The notes beneath the pieces were generated by a model. The model was not told where the DNA came from. It saw only the letters and a program-made list of their open reading frames with translations, and made no database searches. A program made the translations under genes and the position numbers. DNA of 22,032 bases from a virus, in IMG/VR virus record IMGVR_UViG_3300036768_000909, positions 1 to 22,032 of that record, one strand, 5' to 3'. Of the stretch, positions 880 to 22,032 are shown piece by piece. How positions within the stretch are numbered: the first letter of the stretch is position 1; the number at the start of each line of letters is the position of its first letter.

Positions 880-3743
880 GCCCCAATCAACCCCTCGAAC
901 TCATTCACAAACTGGCCGAGCGCCTTGCGTGTGCCTTCGTCGATGAGCCTGACCAATTCCTGTGGGTTGTACCCGCCGATGTCGCCAAAACTCATCTGTG
1001 GCGCGAATGTCCCAATCGTCAACCCTCCCCTGCCGCTAAGAAGCTGGCGAGTCGCATCCGCAGGCAGGATTCGTGCGGGTTGTGACAGCAAAGCGAGATT
1101 CTGCCCATTGTTGAGCAGTGCTGACTCCAATCCGTATTCATTGAAGCGGAATGGTCTGCCTGGAATGGGTCGTCCCCCGCCCGCAAAATTGGTCGGGGTT
1201 GCGCCACTGGTGGCCGGCGCAGGTGCGCCAGCGTTGGCGGCCAGCGTCGCGCTTCCGGTGCGCAAGAAATTGAAGAAACTGGTCATGCTGCTGCGGGCGG
1301 AGTCAATGGCGCTAAAGGCATTCTGGACGAAAGCGTTGCCTAGATCGGTTTCCTGGAGGAGTTGTAGGCGTAAATCGTTAATCTGCTTATTCCGGGCACG
1401 CACCCGTTCAGCGTCCTCGCGGGCATTATCTTCCTGCAAGCGCTTCAGGCGAATGGCGCGATCCTGCGCTTCATCGGCAGCGCGGATGGCGCGGTCTTCA
1501 GCTTCACGCTGAAGCTGGAGATTGCGCTGGGCGTCTTCCTGAATCAACTGTTGTTGGAACTGCTGCGAACGCAGCGCTTGTTCGCGGGCAAACTGCTGTT
1601 GTGCCTGTTGTTCCCGCCGTTGGAAATCTTCGTTGCGCCGCTGCGTTTCGGTGTCATAACTGCTATTCTCGGCTTTTGCCTTATCGGCGGCGGCTTGCTG
1701 GGCGCGCAACACCGCTTTGGCGTCGAGACTGCTGGCAGCATCTTCAACCGCGCGGTCGCGCTCGCTGGCAATCTCATCCAGGCGTTTGCTGTGGTCTTCA
1801 GCGCGGCGCACATCCTCGGCGCGAAAGTCGGCCAAATTCTGTGCTTGCTGGGCGTAGAACTGCGCCGCCGCGTCCTGCGTCTGCTGATAGTAGGCGTTGA
1901 GTTCCCGCGCGCGGTTAGCGTAGTAATCCTGGTCACGGCGGGCATCGGCCAGATTCTGGTCGCGGGACTGACGGCCACTACGCAGCGCGTTATCCGCCTC
2001 TTCGCGTGCTGCCGCGATGCGTCGCTGCTCGTCGATCTTGCGACTTTCCTCATCAAAATCCTCGTTGATTTTGGCAATTTTCTGGTTGGTTTCCCTGATT
2101 TTGTCAGCGTTGGCTTCGAGTGCGGCGGTGAGTGGATTAGCTTTCTGAGCAACCTGCCCCATTGCGTCGCCGGCGACCGCTGCCCCCTGCTGAAGTGGAG
2201 GGAATAGAAATTCGGCCAGGCCTTTGACGATGGGATTAACGATGTTGTCTACTCCCTGCCCCACTGAGTCAGCCACGCTCCGAGCTTCGCTGTGATCAAT
2301 GCCGCGCGCCAGGCGATCCAGTGCTTCCGTGCGCTGTCTCCCAGCGGCAACTATCTCGTCAAAACCGCTCTTGAGGGCGTTGTTACCCGCCGCGCCGATG
2401 CTTTTGGCGGCTTCCTCCTGCCCCGGAATATGGCTGAGAAGGTTGCTGACTGCATTCAGGAATGTGCCGATGGTCTGCACGACATTGCCAAAGGCTTCAC
2501 GGAAATACGAGCCACCCAGTTTGAAGACGGCGACGATGAGTTCAATTGCCTGCTTGACGACATTTGCGCCGACTGCGAAAATTTGCGCGATGAGCTTTGC
2601 TCCCTCGCCGAGCGACTTCACCACGATGACGATGATCTGATTCAGTCGTTCGGCCAGTACGCTGCCCGCGCTTTCCCCTGCCGCGATGCGCCCCAAATCG
2701 CCCGACCGGACACCGGCCTTTGCCAGCCGTGTTGCCACTTCCTCCCCAATCCCCACCCCTGCCGCAGCGGCCAGACCAACGCCAGCGACTCGCCCCACGC
2801 CGCCGCTGGAAACCGTTTTCAGTGTCTTATAAGCTGTAATCAACTGGGATAGCGCCAGGAAAAGCGGCGCGGTACCCGCTGCGGCAATCGCAAACACCGA
2901 GAGCGTTTGGAGTAAGGCTGGATTGGTCTTGTTCAGCCGATCAATGAAATCGCCGATTTGGGTGGCGGCTGGAATGAGGAAATTGTTGAGAAATGGCGTG
3001 AATGCAGTGGCTAAGGCCTCCTGCGTGACGCCGCGCAGGCGGTTAAAGGCGTTTGCGCCGCTGGCATTGAGTTGCTTGAACTTCTCTTCGGTCACGCCGA
3101 GGCCGCCAACCAGCTTGTCGAGGCCTTCGATGATCTTCTGCGGGTCGCCCTTCGCCGCATCGACCAGCCCCTTGAGTTGCGTCTTACTCAGTTCAAAGCG
3201 AGCGGCCAGTGAGGTGTAGGTGCCGCCGAGCAGTTCGCGGACGGCGAAGGCCGCCCCCTCAATGCCCTGCGCCGGGTCGATGAGCGCGAGACGTTGAACC
3301 AGACTCAATGTCTTGCCGAGGTCGACATTATTGCGCCCGACGGCAGGCAGGATGGCGTTCGCGCCCTCGGCAACATCGAGGAAGGATTGGCCGGTGTCGT
3401 TGGCGATTTTGCGAAGCTGCGCCATCCGTTCGTTGGCCTTCTGGGTCGAGCCGGAAAACGTGACCATGAGCGCATTCAGGCGCGCCACCTGCTGCGAGGC
3501 GGCTACCCCCCGCGCCACAATACCCGCGCCTCCGAGTGTGGCGAGGATCGTATTCAACCCGCCAGCGGTCTGCCGGAATTTGGTTTCGAGATTATCAAGA
3601 CCGCTGGCAATCGTGCGTCCGGTGTTCTGCCAGGCGCTCCCGACTTGCTGGGCAGTCGAAACGATCAGACGACCTGCGCTCTGGAGAGCGGAGGTGTCAA
3701 TTCGGAAACTGCCCTGAGCCACGCCGGGACGATTACCCGCCAC
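876..3743 (-). CDS. Tail tape measure protein
   Basis: This 955-aa protein is the longest in the window. Tape measure proteins set the length of the tail tube and are threaded through its lumen. The N-terminal third is Gly/Ala/Leu-rich with hydrophobic helices (around residues 285-310 and 320-335). Residues of roughly 540-810 form a very long charged region rich in Q, R, E, D and A, typical of an extended coiled coil. The C-terminus carries a Gly-rich segment followed by RFNEYGLESALLNNG, a pattern common near the end of tape measure proteins. At about 0.15 nm per residue this suggests a tail near 140 nm. The start is a GTG at 3743 with a nearby GGAAGGG Shine-Dalgarno, overlapping the chaperone frame by 11 bases. 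Its position directly after the chaperone pair is canonical. Confidence 0.93.
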   Translation of the reverse strand: MAGNRPGVAQGSFRIDTSALQSAGRLIVSTAQQVGSAWQNTGRTIASGLDNLETKFRQTAGGLNTILATLGGAGIVARGVAASQQVARLNALMVTFSGSTQKANERMAQLRKIANDTGQSFLDVAEGANAILPAVGRNNVDLGKTLSLVQRLALIDPAQGIEGAAFAVRELLGGTYTSLAARFELSKTQLKGLVDAAKGDPQKIIEGLDKLVGGLGVTEEKFKQLNASGANAFNRLRGVTQEALATAFTPFLNNFLIPAATQIGDFIDRLNKTNPALLQTLSVFAIAAAGTAPLFLALSQLITAYKTLKTVSSGGVGRVAGVGLAAAAGVGIGEEVATRLAKAGVRSGDLGRIAAGESAGSVLAERLNQIIVIVVKSLGEGAKLIAQIFAVGANVVKQAIELIVAVFKLGGSYFREAFGNVVQTIGTFLNAVSNLLSHIPGQEEAAKSIGAAGNNALKSGFDEIVAAGRQRTEALDRLARGIDHSEARSVADSVGQGVDNIVNPIVKGLAEFLFPPLQQGAAVAGDAMGQVAQKANPLTAALEANADKIRETNQKIAKINEDFDEESRKIDEQRRIAAAREEADNALRSGRQSRDQNLADARRDQDYYANRARELNAYYQQTQDAAAQFYAQQAQNLADFRAEDVRRAEDHSKRLDEIASERDRAVEDAASSLDAKAVLRAQQAAADKAKAENSSYDTETQRRNEDFQRREQQAQQQFAREQALRSQQFQQQLIQEDAQRNLQLQREAEDRAIRAADEAQDRAIRLKRLQEDNAREDAERVRARNKQINDLRLQLLQETDLGNAFVQNAFSAIDSARSSMTSFFNFLRTGSATLAANAGAPAPATSGATPTNFAGGGRPIPGRPFRFNEYGLESALLNNGQNLALLSQPARILPADATRQLLSGRGGLTIGTFAPQMSFGDIGGYNPQELVRLIDEGTRKALGQFVNEFEGLIGA

Positions 3744-4044
3744 GCTTACCCTTCCTTATGGATACGCCGGTTAAACCCAGCACGCTTTTGATGAACGCCT
3801 TTTTGCTGACCCGCTGCTTTGGATCGGCGAGCAGGTCGTCGAGGGTGTGCAGGTGCTGACCGGTCTTGGGGTCTACTTCGTTCAACTTACCTTCGACGTA
3901 GTTGCCGAAGTAGGACACCGCCGCGTCAAATTGCAGCGGAGTCCAGAGGTCATCCGGCATCCCGGTCAGGTCCGCCGCCCACTCGCGGATTCCCAGCAGT
4001 TCACTCGGTGACTGGCGAGTTGCCCGTGCCACCGCCCACACCAT
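3733..4044 (-). CDS. Tail assembly chaperone, second frame (T-like extension)
   Basis: This frame overlaps the end of the preceding chaperone ORF by 44 bases and lies directly upstream of the tape measure, the classical G/GT arrangement in siphoviruses. It can start at an ATG at 4044 (103 aa), but the same frame is open further upstream and reads sensibly there as VRSKQALWMVWAVARATRQS. That suggests it is normally reached by frameshifting from the upstream ORF, giving a fused chaperone. The frame is offset +1 (equivalently -2) from the upstream ORF, not the more common -1. No Shine-Dalgarno sequence is evident at 4044. The product has a hydrophobic helical centre and a basic tail ending GVSIRKGKRGG. 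Confidence 0.72.
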   Translation of the reverse strand: MVWAVARATRQSPSELLGIREWAADLTGMPDDLWTPLQFDAAVSYFGNYVEGKLNEVDPKTGQHLHTLDDLLADPKQRVSKKAFIKSVLGLTGVSIRKGKRGG

Positions 4045-4495
4045 CCACAGCGCTTGTTTGCTGCGGACGAAAATTGGCGAGCGCTGCGCTTGGCAGCCCC
4101 ATGAGCGAAAACAGGAATTGTTTCTCCTGGTCGCTCATATCGTCCCTGCCAATCTCATCGTCAGCCTTCGGGTCATCAACCATGCGCGGGTACAGCAAAC
4201 AGGTCATGGCAAAGGCGTCGTAGATGTCCACCAGATGGAGCGCTTCATCGGTGGTCAGGGTGTTGAGCGCATCCGAGCCGCCGCCGTTCACCACGAACTT
4301 CTCGACCAGCGGCGTCAGCGTGTCGGGAATTGTCCCCAGCCGCAGAAAGGTGGACATGTTGACCGGGCGAATGACAACCACACGCCCCCCTGGAAGTTCG
4401 ACCGGCACCCCTTCCTGACGCGCTTTGCGCCACTCGCTGGCCGGCGTCGCGCCCATCGCTTGAAAATCGGTGCGATCCATCAGCTTGTTGCCCAT
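4001..4495 (-). CDS. Tail assembly chaperone (G-like)
   Basis: This 164-aa protein is encoded two bases after the major tail protein stop, between it and the tape measure, the invariant position of the tail assembly chaperone that coats the tape measure during tube polymerisation. The N-terminus contains a short beta-like segment (VELPGGRVVVIRPVNMSTFLRLG) resembling this class of tail protein. The C-terminal part is acidic and ends in a Gly/Ser-rich linker (SAVDGVGGGTGNSPVTE), as expected for a domain connected to a second frame by ribosomal frameshifting. Start: ATG at 4495 with weak ribosome-binding signal, so coupling to the upstream gene is likely. Family membership is inferred from order, size and overlap with the downstream frame. 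Confidence 0.78.
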   Translation of the reverse strand: MGNKLMDRTDFQAMGATPASEWRKARQEGVPVELPGGRVVVIRPVNMSTFLRLGTIPDTLTPLVEKFVVNGGGSDALNTLTTDEALHLVDIYDAFAMTCLLYPRMVDDPKADDEIGRDDMSDQEKQFLFSLMGLPSAALANFRPQQTSAVDGVGGGTGNSPVTE

Positions 4496-4497
4496 CG

Positions 4498-5082
4498 TTA
4501 CGCCGCCGGCACGGTAGCAGCGACCGCCGTATCGTGTTCGAGAACTTCGAACAGGGTGGGCTTGCCTTCAGCGTCAGGGTAGCCGGCATCCAGGACGGCG
4601 GTGATCTTTAACTGGGTAACAGCGAATGCGCCGTATTCGAACTTCACATCGAAACTGCCTGTTACCTTTGCCTTCGGAACAAAGACATGGGTATCCCCGT
4701 TGCCCTCTTCGGCCTCGGCCCGCACGGTCAGGCCGAAATACGGGCGCTTGCGATTGGTAATGCGCACGCGCTTGTACATGATGCTGGTGGACTGGCCGCT
4801 ATTGAGCGACTCGCCCATGATGACGCGCAGCACGTCGGTATCGACGCCACCGAAATCCACGCTGACCTCGGCTTTGTTGGTGCGGCTGGCGGTGGCCGTG
4901 ATGCCATCGTCGCCTTCCAGGTCGCTCGACGTGGTTTGGGGCGACACCTGTCCCAGGCGGATGCTGGGGATGTCGTAATTCGTGTCGTAGATGCCATCGG
5001 CGAGTCGCTTGGCGATCTTGCCGTCGGCCAGTCCGAATTGCGGGCCACCGACATCAAAAATTCCGTTCCGTCCTACTGTCAT
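4498..5082 (-). CDS. Major tail protein (tail tube)
   Basis: This 194-aa protein begins MTVGRNGIFDVGGPQFGLAD. The ATG at 5082 is preferred over longer in-frame extensions because it has an AAGGA Shine-Dalgarno and an ATGA overlap with the preceding gene; the upstream extension is Arg-rich shadow sequence. The sequence is beta-rich, with an early loop (YDIPSIRLGQVSPQTTSSDLE), charged strands (ASRTNKAEVSVDFGGVDTD) and a central MYKRVRITNRKRPYFGLTVRA stretch, consistent with a siphovirus tube subunit. Its location between tail-completion genes and the tail assembly chaperones supports the call. A tube without a neighbouring sheath gene indicates a non-contractile tail. Confidence 0.8.
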   Translation of the reverse strand: MTVGRNGIFDVGGPQFGLADGKIAKRLADGIYDTNYDIPSIRLGQVSPQTTSSDLEGDDGITATASRTNKAEVSVDFGGVDTDVLRVIMGESLNSGQSTSIMYKRVRITNRKRPYFGLTVRAEAEEGNGDTHVFVPKAKVTGSFDVKFEYGAFAVTQLKITAVLDAGYPDAEGKPTLFEVLEHDTAVAATVPAA

Positions 5083-5534
5083 GATGTTTTCCTTCCAATG
5101 ACCTCGTAATCGCGCCTGAGCATAACCGCGCCGCGCAGGGCGGGCATCAACTGCTCGCGCTCGTCGTTCACTTCGTTTGAAAGCTGTACCTGAAACACGC
5201 CATTGACGGGCGTATCCTGAAGCAGCGCGTAAATCCGGTCGGCGGCTGCGTACAGCGTGGACCAATTTTGTGATTTGTCGTCGTACAGGTAGATTTCCAC
5301 CACCTGGCGCGTGTTCATGTAACCGATGTCCCGCAGGCCACCGGGCAACTCCGTCAGCACCCTCCCCTTGACCACCGCGAACGGCTTCAGCCTGACGCCG
5401 TTGAAAATGCCCGGCAGCGTGGTCGGATTCACCTCGGCGGGCAGACTCCGGTACAGCAACACCCCGCCAGTTAGCGCGCTGGTAAGCGTCGCATCGGCTG
5501 ACAGGCGCGCCTGAATCAGGTCCACTGCGCTCAT
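5079..5534 (-). CDS. Tail terminator / tail-completion protein
   Basis: This 151-aa protein has 4-base ATGA overlaps with both neighbours. It starts with an amphipathic helix (MSAVDLIQARLSADATLTSAL), then beta segments (VVEIYLYD) and a helix (LYAAADRIYALLQD), the arrangement of small tail terminator proteins that cap the tube and join it to the neck. There are no membrane segments or enzymatic motifs. Position directly before the major tail protein matches the terminator slot in siphovirus gene order. The functional call is inferred mainly from that order and size. Confidence 0.7.
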   Translation of the reverse strand: MSAVDLIQARLSADATLTSALTGGVLLYRSLPAEVNPTTLPGIFNGVRLKPFAVVKGRVLTELPGGLRDIGYMNTRQVVEIYLYDDKSQNWSTLYAAADRIYALLQDTPVNGVFQVQLSNEVNDEREQLMPALRGAVMLRRDYEVIGRKTS

Positions 5535-17590: not shown

Positions 17591-19768
17591 CTACCATCCC
17601 GACACGGCCATCTGGCGCACCGGAATGCTTGGCTCATCAACCAAATCATGATACGCGCCGCTGAAGGCGTCCACCTGGTCATCATGGTAGCCCTGCTGGG
17701 GGAACCAAACCACCTCGTTGATGAAATCCCGATTCCAGGGGCCGGCCTTGAGGACAATGTTGCCGTACTCAACCTGAGCAGACAGTGGCTTGGCGCGTGT
17801 CACCTTGTCGCCCGTCACCCGCGCCCCGCGCACATCGAAGCCTTGCAGTTCGGTGACGTAGCTATCGACCAGGCTTTTGCCCGATGCGCCGCCCTCCTGC
17901 TCGATGCGGATGGCGACTCCCCTGCCGTCCTGCTGCGCGGTGGCTTTCACCAGTTCCATGACGCCTTTGGGGAGACGGCGGTCGCGCACCACGTCGAGGA
18001 CGGCAAACTTGTTTTTCTCACGAAGCTGTGCCAGGAGTAAACCGACGGTGTAATCGGGGTCGGTGTTGGTAGCGCTCGGTTCGCTGGCCGCGAGGTCCCA
18101 ATGGCGGATGAGCCGCGCGCCAAGCAGGTCAATGTGATCAACTGTCTTGAACCAGTCGCGCTTGAACAGGCCGCCGTCGAAGGTAGCATCCCAATTCCCT
18201 TCGAGCAGTTGGGATCGCGTGACGTAATCCAGTTCCTCCAGCGACTCCATATAGGAGGCTTTATCAACGCCCGGATTGTCGGTCAGGAAGGATGGAATAA
18301 AAATCTTGTCGCGTTTGCGCGTGGATGGGTTGATGTAGCGATTTTTAACCCATTCATGGCCGACGCCTCCCGGATTGGAAGCAGCACGGAAGCGCAGTGG
18401 CACATCGACTCCGGCTTTACGCCGCTGGCGGCTGAACAAATATAATGCCTGCTGCTCATAGAATTGTGTCAGTTCGTCAAAGGCGCAGTTTTGATTAATT
18501 AACCCAGTTGTGGTGAAATAATGAGACACGCCAGCAATGGTAATGTCCACAACATCAATCGAGTCGCATGGAGAAAGGATTGCGGTGCCAAATGTCACGG
18601 GTTCGGTCGCTAAACGAGTTTCCCTCGTATACGGGTGGCGATACGTTGCTCTATGGAGGGTACATATACGAGTATTCACCGCGCCATCGACTGTGCAATC
18701 AATAACGTAATCGTGGGCGTTTTCAAGCCGCGCTGACTGAACAGTCGGTGCATGAAGCACTACAGGGACGGACGCTAAAGCAGGCTGCTGCCCTGCTCCA
18801 TGTTCACACGCAAACTCTGCGGAACCGATACCCTGAGATTTTGGAGCCTCGGAAGCGAAAAACTCCGACGCAGATTGATGACCCTGAAATTGTTGAGACA
18901 ATCCGACTGCTGGCAAACGATGCGACGGTAGGCTATCGGGAAATTGCTCAACGCTATGGAATTGCTGCCATGACGGTGAAACGCATCTGCGAGCGGTACA
19001 ACATTCCCTGGACGAAGAAAACTCGCAAGGGCCAGAAGCGCCGACAATATCGACGTAGGAATGCCACCCCCTAGGTGTCAGCATCGGATGCGTTTTGCTT
19101 TGCACCTGCGTGCCGATAAGACGCCCTCTTTCATCAAAGACATCGGCACGCACACATTCCTCATTTCGTGGTACAGCAACCCGCGAGACTGGACGCGCTC
19201 CTTCCAGAGTCATGACCATATCGCCAGGGCGTAAATCCTCGACAGATTTTTGGCTACCATCGGCCATGACGATTCGTGTTCCCACTGCGGTGCAGAACTG
19301 GTATTCAGCGCCCTGATACTGTGTCTCGTCACCGATATGATGCAGATAGCCAAAAGAGAGCGTCGCGCCGCTGGGGAAAATGAAGCGGTGATCATTGTTA
19401 TTCCACTTCACCTCACCTGACTTGACGAATGGGTACATCCACTGAAGGGCGCGGTTCATGATGGCCTGGGGCTTGTTGAGATCGGCGAAGGTGCGGCGGA
19501 GAATCAGCGCGTCATAACCAGGCACATCGACGTACTGAAGCGCGGCCATCAGCAAGGCCTCCGATTTTCCTCCGCCCGCCGCGCCGCCAAAGAACACATC
19601 TCGGACGTGGTTGAGTAGCAGAAAGGCGGCCTGTTTAGGACTGGGGGTTGTCGGGATGTATTTCGTCAGCCTCGGCGTCGTCAGCCGCGCCAGTTGATCC
19701 AATGTCCCTGGATTGGAGCGCTCCAACTGACGCAAGGACTCCGAGGATGTCGGCAATGCGGTCCACAT
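17591..19768 (-). CDS. terL: Terminase large subunit with intein
   Basis: This 725-aa precursor is the packaging ATPase/nuclease. The Walker A-like motif is FFGGAAGGGKSE (residues 59-70), and Walker B ends in CAFDE (D431-E432). Residues 461-470 (RAASNPGGVG) are the coupling motif. The RNase H-like nuclease domain has D558 (RHWDLA), E623/E625 (RIEQEGG) and D696/D697/D700 (YHDDQVDAFSGAY). An intein occupies residues 159-427; the spliced protein would be 456 aa, normal for terminases. The ATG at 19768 lies within the small-terminase end (134-base overlap); an internal TTG near 19702 is a possible later start. Portal follows 33 bases downstream. Confidence 0.92.
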   Translation of the reverse strand: MWTALPTSSESLRQLERSNPGTLDQLARLTTPRLTKYIPTTPSPKQAAFLLLNHVRDVFFGGAAGGGKSEALLMAALQYVDVPGYDALILRRTFADLNKPQAIMNRALQWMYPFVKSGEVKWNNNDHRFIFPSGATLSFGYLHHIGDETQYQGAEYQFCTAVGTRIVMADGSQKSVEDLRPGDMVMTLEGARPVSRVAVPRNEECVRADVFDERGRLIGTQVQSKTHPMLTPRGWHSYVDIVGASGPCEFSSSRECCTARRCVSPSWQQFHSVEQFPDSLPSHRLPAVGLSQQFQGHQSASEFFASEAPKSQGIGSAEFACEHGAGQQPALASVPVVLHAPTVQSARLENAHDYVIDCTVDGAVNTRICTLHRATYRHPYTRETRLATEPVTFGTAILSPCDSIDVVDITIAGVSHYFTTTGLINQNCAFDELTQFYEQQALYLFSRQRRKAGVDVPLRFRAASNPGGVGHEWVKNRYINPSTRKRDKIFIPSFLTDNPGVDKASYMESLEELDYVTRSQLLEGNWDATFDGGLFKRDWFKTVDHIDLLGARLIRHWDLAASEPSATNTDPDYTVGLLLAQLREKNKFAVLDVVRDRRLPKGVMELVKATAQQDGRGVAIRIEQEGGASGKSLVDSYVTELQGFDVRGARVTGDKVTRAKPLSAQVEYGNIVLKAGPWNRDFINEVVWFPQQGYHDDQVDAFSGAYHDLVDEPSIPVRQMAVSGW
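18488..19294 (-). other. Intein in terminase large subunit (no LAGLIDADG)
   Basis: A 269-aa protein intron. It starts with Cys1 in CTAVGTRIVMADGS (splicing block A), has DLRPGDMVMTLEG, block B-like SKTHPMLTPRGWHS, block F VVDITIAGVSHYFTTTG and block G LINQN, followed by Cys+1 of the C-extein. The penultimate His is Gln, a known variant. No LAGLIDADG or HNH homing endonuclease motif is seen in frame. The middle (about residues 90-190 of the intein) is a Ser/Gln/Ala-rich region without recognisable fold, where an HTH ORF is found on the opposite strand. Insertion in YQF|CAFDE next to the Walker B acidic residues is typical, since inteins sit at conserved active sites. Confidence 0.9.
18748..19074 (+). 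CDS. Two-HTH DNA-binding protein nested antisense in the intein
   Basis: This 108-aa ORF runs opposite to the terminase, inside the intein DNA. Residues 9-28 (TLKQAAALLHVHTQTLRNRY) form one helix-turn-helix. Residues 45-84 form a second (DDPEIVETIRLLANDATVGY, then REIAQRYGIAAMTVKRICERY). The C-terminus is strongly basic (KKTRKGQKRRQYRRR). Such clean repeated HTH patterns are unlikely in a shadow frame. Start is the GTG at 18748; no Shine-Dalgarno is seen and the frame is open upstream to 18706, so the start is uncertain. Codon third positions are more AT-rich than in neighbouring phage genes. It could be a transposase/invertase-like or homing-associated DNA-binding remnant, or a regulator. 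Expression is unproven. Confidence 0.6.
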   Translation: MHEALQGRTLKQAAALLHVHTQTLRNRYPEILEPRKRKTPTQIDDPEIVETIRLLANDATVGYREIAQRYGIAAMTVKRICERYNIPWTKKTRKGQKRRQYRRRNATP

Positions 19769-21185: not shown

Positions 21186-21944
21186 TTACGAGGCATTGAG
21201 CTTACCCATAGCCTTCATGCCCTGCTCCTCCAGGAAGAGCAGGAAGGGAATAAGCGCTTCGTAGTACGCCCGATGCGGGTCGCCTTCCGGCTTGCGCCCA
21301 ACCTCCGCCTCGAATGCGGGCAGAGTATCGAAAAAGCACCCGCGCTGGATGCGCAGGCCGTCATCCCACCGTACCCAGTAGAGCAGCGCGTTGTCGCTGC
21401 CCCCTGGGCCTACGCACCCGATGTTCTTCGCGCCGTGTAGGTTCACGGCGTGCAGGTTCGCGCCCGCCATGTCCGCGTCGTGCAGGTCAGCGCCGTGCAG
21501 GTCAGCGCCGTGCAGGTTCGCGGCGCGCAGGTCCGCGTCGTGCAGGTCAGCGCCGTGCAGGTCAGCGCCGTGCGCGTCTGCATCGCGCATGACCACCCCC
21601 TGCAGGTCAGCGCCGCTCAGGTCAGCTCCGCGCATGTACGCGCCGGACAGGTCCGCACCGCTCAGGTCCGCGCCGCTTAGAACTGCGTCGGGCATGTACG
21701 CGTCGTGCAGGTCCGCGTCGTACAGAACCGCGCCGGACAGGTCTGCGCCGGCCAGGTTCGCCCCGCGCAGAATCGCTCCTGACAGGTCAACCCCCGACAG
21801 GTCAGCTCCGCGCAGGTCTGCGCCGAGCGCATAGACCAACAGCGCCTCGGTGCGGGTGATTTTCCAGCGCTCGCCTCTTTCCCGCGCTTCTGCGCGCAGC
21901 GTGAGAAGTTCTGACAAGGGGCGAATTTCAAGTGCTGTATTCAT
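21186..21944 (-). CDS. Pentapeptide-repeat protein
   Basis: This 252-aa protein (from ATG 21944, with AAGGAG ten bases upstream) has an N-terminal helical segment (MNTALEIRPLSELLTLRAEA). It then has about 27 pentapeptide repeats of the A(D/N)LxG type, such as GADLSGADLSGAYMRGADL, over residues of about 45-185. This folds as a right-handed quadrilateral beta helix. The C-terminal 65 residues (WVRWDDGLRIQRGCFFDTLP) form a separate domain seen with such repeats. Some family members mimic DNA and inhibit gyrase; function here is unknown. The repeats are visible at DNA level as tandem 15-base units. The same frame is open upstream to the window edge, so a longer N-terminus cannot be excluded. Confidence 0.85.
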   Translation of the reverse strand: MNTALEIRPLSELLTLRAEARERGERWKITRTEALLVYALGADLRGADLSGVDLSGAILRGANLAGADLSGAVLYDADLHDAYMPDAVLSGADLSGADLSGAYMRGADLSGADLQGVVMRDADAHGADLHGADLHDADLRAANLHGADLHGADLHDADMAGANLHAVNLHGAKNIGCVGPGGSDNALLYWVRWDDGLRIQRGCFFDTLPAFEAEVGRKPEGDPHRAYYEALIPFLLFLEEQGMKAMGKLNAS

Positions 21945-22032
21945 GTTCTCATTTCTCCTTTTTACAGTTTTCTGTGCCAGCCGTTGCATTTCCAGGACGG
22001 CCAGCGTATATACTTCTTCTGCCGCGCTATCG

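Follow-up and report, generated by a model that had tools for sequence, protein, structure and literature searches.

Known homing inteins usually carry their endonuclease as an in-frame domain. The large terminase gene of the virus genome analyzed here (the window, a complete IMG/VR record of 22,032 bases) contains an intein in which no intact endonuclease motif was found, and the strand opposite this intein encodes a 108-aa product with two HTH motifs. The preliminary description of the sequence viewed this frame as a DNA-binding gene that had taken the place of the endonuclease, perhaps a regulator or a targeting factor. The question raised by the locus is what the antisense frame encodes and how it came to lie within an intein.

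The terminase intein and the frame opposite it

The minus strand of the window carries the genes for a portal protein and for the small and large terminase subunits, the latter (TerL) of the psiM2 type. A 267-aa pentapeptide-repeat-like protein with ADLxGADL repeats is encoded upstream of the terminase genes (21186–21989, minus strand). The features of the terL gene are as follows.

17591–19768, minus strand: terL, ORF of the psiM2-type terminase large subunit, 725 aa, with the intein in frame (phrog_979, 1.2e-103; TIGR01630, 1.3e-23; Terminase_6C, 1.3e-17)
18488–19294, minus strand: intein, 269 aa, from C1 to a terminal Q-N with Cys at +1 (alignments with intein-less and intein-bearing TerL; AlphaFold2 HINT fold; Foldseek)
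19031–19294, minus strand: N-terminal Hint half, intein residues 1–88, blocks A and B (pLDDT about 95; C1 and H69 invariant across the family)
18638–19030, minus strand: intein linker, residues 89–219, the sense translation of the antisense endonuclease region (pLDDT, frame conservation)
18488–18637, minus strand: C-terminal Hint part, intein residues 220–269, blocks F and G (pLDDT about 90–95; DxT, SHY, terminal N)
18748–19074, plus strand: antisense double-HTH ORF, 108 aa, the putative C-terminal DNA-binding half of an HNH homing endonuclease (Pfam; homology to L123 and L132)
18724–19053, plus strand: extent of homology to residues 132–246 of the L132 open frame (local alignment)

The intein corresponds to TerL residues 159–427 within a continuous ORF, and its frame is open throughout. 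It is inserted immediately ahead of the terminase Walker B segment (YQF|C...NQN|C-AFDELT, where AFDELT is the Walker B segment); intein-less TerL relatives read YHY/QF-I-A/G-FDELT at this point. C1, H69, DxT/SHY, N269, and the +1 Cys are all present, with Gln instead of His at the penultimate position. AlphaFold2 run with the family alignment predicted a confident Hint domain formed by residues 1–88 and about 220–269 (pLDDT around 90–97), while linker residues 90–167, which lie over the HTH ORF, have pLDDT values below 50 and are predicted to be disordered. The top Foldseek match of the intein is the gp41-1 intein, with the RecA and PRP8 inteins also matched, and the intein profile A8 matches PI-SceI. 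Since both extein halves are intact, the protein would still be spliced, and a splicing-competent intein is the best explanation of the sequence.

The antisense ORF starts with GTG and ends with TAG, and its frame is open from position 18706. The product matches the Pfam models HTH_23 (1.3e-7), HTH_28 (4.8e-7), and HTH_Tnp_ISL3 (2.8e-7), each in two stretches and each above the Pfam curated cutoffs; no HNH_3 match was found with Pfam. The two-HTH frame noticed in the preliminary description is thus real, and the matches argue that the plus strand truly descends from DNA-binding coding sequence and is not a chance antisense frame. Homology to the relatives described below begins a few codons upstream of the GTG, and the HTH_ISL3 score improves to 6.3e-8 once these codons are added.

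Relatives with a complete antisense endonuclease

Exact-peptide searches of viral and genome contigs with the window HTH or TerL sequence, and a tblastn search of phages and plasmids with the window HTH, returned nothing useful. Relatives were found with a degenerate DNA pattern in which the intein end is fused to the TerL Walker B segment; a stricter version of the pattern was unsuccessful. The degenerate pattern led to L123, an IMG/VR contig whose TerL intein sits at the matching point and whose antisense strand encodes an HNH core (HNH_3, 5.2e-12) with a double HTH after it. A joint-alignment search yielded 12 further viral contigs and one Verrucomicrobiota MAG contig. This gives 14 records (13 IMG/VR contigs and the MAG) and, since the endonucleases of L126 and L129 are identical, 13 distinct endonucleases.

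In all 14 records, an HNH-HTH ORF lies opposite a continuous TerL-plus-intein ORF of 759 to 1194 aa, and the intein positions of the window and the 14 records fall within about four codons of each other near the Walker B strand. HNH_3 was detected in 12 of the 13 distinct endonucleases (best value, 2.7e-14) and gave no match in the remaining one at the threshold applied. When the endonuclease family profile was compared to PDB sequences, I-HmuI was the only match (1.1e-4); a Foldseek comparison of the endonuclease model with I-HmuI was weak (E of 0.12). The I-HmuI gene lies in a group I intron. Enzymes of its type (HNH_3, PF13392; PDB 1u3e) likewise consist of an HNH_3 core followed by an HTH DNA-binding part; the present gene, in contrast, runs antisense within an intein, and its window copy additionally has no HNH core. 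By inspection, the start codons of some relatives are preceded by Shine-Dalgarno–like GTGAGGTC or GAGAGGC.

The window HTH is 37% identical to that of L123 and about 47% identical to that of L132, with which it groups in the HTH tree (support 96/91). It keeps 23 of 29 family-conserved columns, and the relatives keep 21 to 28 of 28 to 31. The homology search suggested in the preliminary description therefore does return homologs, and these speak against an HTH gene having replaced the endonuclease: in each of the 13 distinct relatives, the corresponding antisense frame encodes an entire HNH endonuclease that ends in this double HTH. Weak similarity to the IS481/IS630 and ISL3 transposase HTH models might still suggest that an unrelated HTH gene, a transposase or regulator fragment, entered the linker of a mini-intein in antisense orientation. 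We regard such an insertion as extremely improbable, given that the HNH genes of these inteins, located at the same site and in the same phase, invariably end in the double HTH, and that an N-terminal endonuclease fragment survives upstream of it in the window (see below). A transposase origin of the HTH is rejected on the basis of the family alignment.

HTH homologs were seen solely as the ends of antisense HNH-HTH genes in TerL inteins, with one exception. In Pseudorhizobium pelagicum (L138, 2899–3543), a double-HTH ORF lacking the HNH part shares the antisense phase of the family and faces a frame that has an intein block-B–like piece; the region is degraded, and no terminase was seen near this ORF. 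A search of about 770 genomes, from the phylum to which L137 belongs and the class to which L138 belongs, gave no further copies. The TerL inteins of GMA6 and Cantare were considered as relatives and rejected, with an insertion point a few residues upstream and linkers that do not match.

Two other features of the relatives were observed. In L127, the TerL ORF (1778–5359, minus strand) apparently contains another intein, located at the Walker A motif (GGALGGGK|LMPLSEP...VTHN|T), which has a LAGLIDADG-like segment in frame. The inteins of L131, L133, and L134 have a C-terminal Gln and a +1 Thr (SSQ|TH) in place of Asn and Cys, which possibly reflects atypical splicing chemistry.

In the window and all 14 records, endonuclease codon position 1 lies over intein codon position 1, as expected of a single ancestral arrangement. 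In alignments of the related TerL inteins, it is the antisense frame and not the intein frame that is better conserved: over the same bases, antisense identity exceeds sense identity in every nonidentical pair (62% versus 33% for L126 and L137; 48% versus 21% for the window and L132), and antisense third codon positions vary most in nearly all pairs. This is the reverse of the pattern, HTH homologs absent and intein frame conserved, that the preliminary description had named as refuting its reading. At the same time, there are zero stops in the sense frame of any relative or of the window. Synonymous shuffling of the endonuclease codons of the relatives over their whole length predicts 4.6 to 10.3 sense stops [P(0) of at most 0.005]. 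In the window, too, the intein frame stays open across the ORF, as the preliminary description had stated, although shuffled HTH codons produce 3.3 intein-frame stops on average [P(0) = 0.013]. The combination of better antisense conservation with a stop-free sense frame indicates that selection acts on the sequence of the antisense protein but, in the sense linker, mainly on openness. Conversely, after synonymous shuffling of the intein frame, the plus frame remains open 13% of the time, so that openness alone is weak evidence against a plus frame that is a mere by-product of intein coding. The Pfam matches above cutoffs, the 13 homologous antisense endonucleases, and the higher conservation of the antisense frame leave almost no room for this explanation.

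The endonuclease and Hint sequences are in some pairs far more similar than the exteins that surround them (endonuclease, Hint, and extein identities of 62, 57, and 27% for L126 and L137, and of 52, 53, and 23% for L125 and L127). This indicates that both travel together between divergent terminases. The endonuclease-plus-intein unit would behave as expected of a mobile element that spreads by homing.

Loss of the HNH core in the window

Comparison with L132 revealed the following additional features on the plus strand of the window.

18592–18702, plus strand: N-terminal remnant of the antisense endonuclease, MSRVRSLNEFPSYTGGDTLLYGGYIYEYSPRHRLCNQ, about 36 codons (same frame as the HTH ORF; L132 homology)
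18703–18705, plus strand: TAA stop between the N-terminal fragment and the HTH part (read directly)
18700–18723, plus strand: deletion junction, 8 codons in place of about 65 residues in L132, the HNH core included (alignment to L132)

The N-terminal fragment is 57% identical to residues 31–66 of the L132 open frame, and none of 1000 shuffles scored as well. Both flanks of the missing HNH core are kept in one plus frame, the catalytic core itself is deleted, with the stop at 18703, and the net effect of the deletion is that the intein frame is preserved. The preliminary description was thus correct that the splicing blocks are kept and that an intact endonuclease motif is absent; the region is not free of endonuclease sequence, however, since this fragment, which the preliminary description had no means of recognizing, remains. 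Antisense DNA-binding coding sequence does occupy the endonuclease slot, and the architecture of the intein is indeed unusual.

Most likely, the antisense homing endonuclease of the window has decayed, and its HTH ORF would be the remnant of a dead or dying enzyme. We assign a probability of about 0.88 to the full reading, in which the ORF corresponds to the C-terminal, DNA-binding part of an antisense HNH homing endonuclease gene in a TerL intein, a gene now decayed, with the intein probably still competent for splicing. In intact relatives, one DNA element would perform two jobs on separate strands. Translation of the sense strand together with the terminase would yield a splicing domain whose long linker is apparently disordered. 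The antisense product would be an I-HmuI–like HNH nuclease with a double HTH, which presumably cleaves terL alleles that have no intein and thereby leads to the element being copied into them. The window copy would have lost its HNH core by internal deletion and gained a stop, while the intein must still splice. Expression of the antisense gene, cutting, homing, and intein splicing are what we infer.

In simulations of neutral drift, 27% of runs kept the HTH frame open at 0.1 substitutions per site, compared with 4% at 0.3 substitutions per site. As the HTH is not visibly degraded, either the decay is recent or the HTH half is still selected. The latter would apply if the HTH-only form were a functional antisense protein, retained after nuclease loss, that binds the homing site or a promoter, with a role in site protection, in regulation, or as a dominant negative against rival endonucleases. 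The HTH part is open and intact with its conserved columns kept, long neutral persistence of such a frame is improbable in the simulation, and L138 provides a second HNH-less copy in the same antisense phase. But the only start is the internal GTG, before which no Shine-Dalgarno sequence is recognizable; no promoter-like site for the HTH part was found on the plus strand; and L138 sits in a degraded region. Moreover, the N-terminal fragment, which looks useless, is preserved as well as the HTH, which points to a recent deletion, with the caveat that this fragment partly overlaps conserved intein sequence. Retention for function is therefore improbable in our estimation; that the HTH-only gene is a domesticated DNA-binding protein, shielding, for example, the occupied terminase site from rival endonucleases, we consider unlikely, if slightly less so. 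The role of regulator or targeting factor proposed in the preliminary description is not needed, because an internal deletion and a stop in an endonuclease gene explain the window copy.

Endonucleases in other frames of phage inteins

Endonuclease genes in unusual frames are known from other settings. The ShiLan domain is an out-of-frame HNH insertion in phage methylases whose host frame is open (PMC11855218). As in the TerL family, the frame that conceals the endonuclease differs from the host-protein frame, which stays open; however, ShiLan lies on the same strand, and its authors did not find a splicing domain, whereas the TerL endonucleases are encoded on the opposite strand and within a splicing domain. 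In nuclear group I introns, such as L2066 of Didymium squamulosum, there are antisense homing endonuclease genes that are expressed and active (PMC9548176). That gene, too, is on the strand opposite the splicing element, but the element is an RNA intron in rDNA, the nuclease is of the His-Cys box type, and an open sense frame is not required. The split uvsX (RecA-like) inteins of T4-like phages have Hint halves resembling the window intein and an endonuclease encoded as a separate gene; there, the extein is encoded in two physically separate pieces, with the endonuclease gene between them on the same strand, while the window has one continuous ORF. The “complementary strand” of a PRP8 intein in PMC1508164 refers to contig orientation only.

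A second case of an antisense endonuclease frame in an intein was found in the MuF proteins of Gordonia phages, where the nuclease family (LAGLIDADG-like), host protein, and codon phase differ from those of the TerL family and the annotation is merely minor capsid protein.

L091:2088–2678, minus strand: antisense LAGLIDADG-like endonuclease of the MuF intein, also present in L095–L097 (phages SchottB, Sitar, Nordenberg, and Thing3)

The antisense product matches phrog_5046 (9e-16). Between SchottB and Sitar, 9 of 151 aa are changed in the antisense frame compared to 45 of 151 in the intein frame, and 43 of the 56 base changes are at antisense third positions, indicating selection on the antisense frame.

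Same-strand arrangements were also observed. The TerL intein of Gordonia phage Sedona (L004:1305–1841) has an Endonuclease_7 in the +2 frame of the same strand (Pfam, 1.7e-19). By eye, from the common motif CIDHDH..LLCNDCN, similar same-strand +2-frame ORFs are seen in 15 of 20 further phage inteins (the TerL inteins of L101, L104, L108–L119, and L121), and the L107 intein has another HNH-like ORF in a different frame. In total, about 16 of the 20 other phage inteins sampled have an endonuclease-like ORF in another frame, mostly as judged by eye. The literature searched, whose coverage did not extend to a preprint on noncanonical actinobacteriophage inteins, contains no description of an endonuclease antisense to an intein, and antisense endonucleases within inteins appear not to have been described before.

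The TerL family thus presents predicted splicing and homing functions encoded on opposite strands of the same bases, across divergent phage terminases. Such an element must simultaneously keep its sense frame free of stops and its antisense enzyme functional, and expression of the enzyme must run opposite to the late genes. The window would capture a step in the decay of an endonuclease in an intein. Apparent mini-inteins with odd linkers may conceal endonucleases, which bears on whether inteins are counted as mobile or dead.
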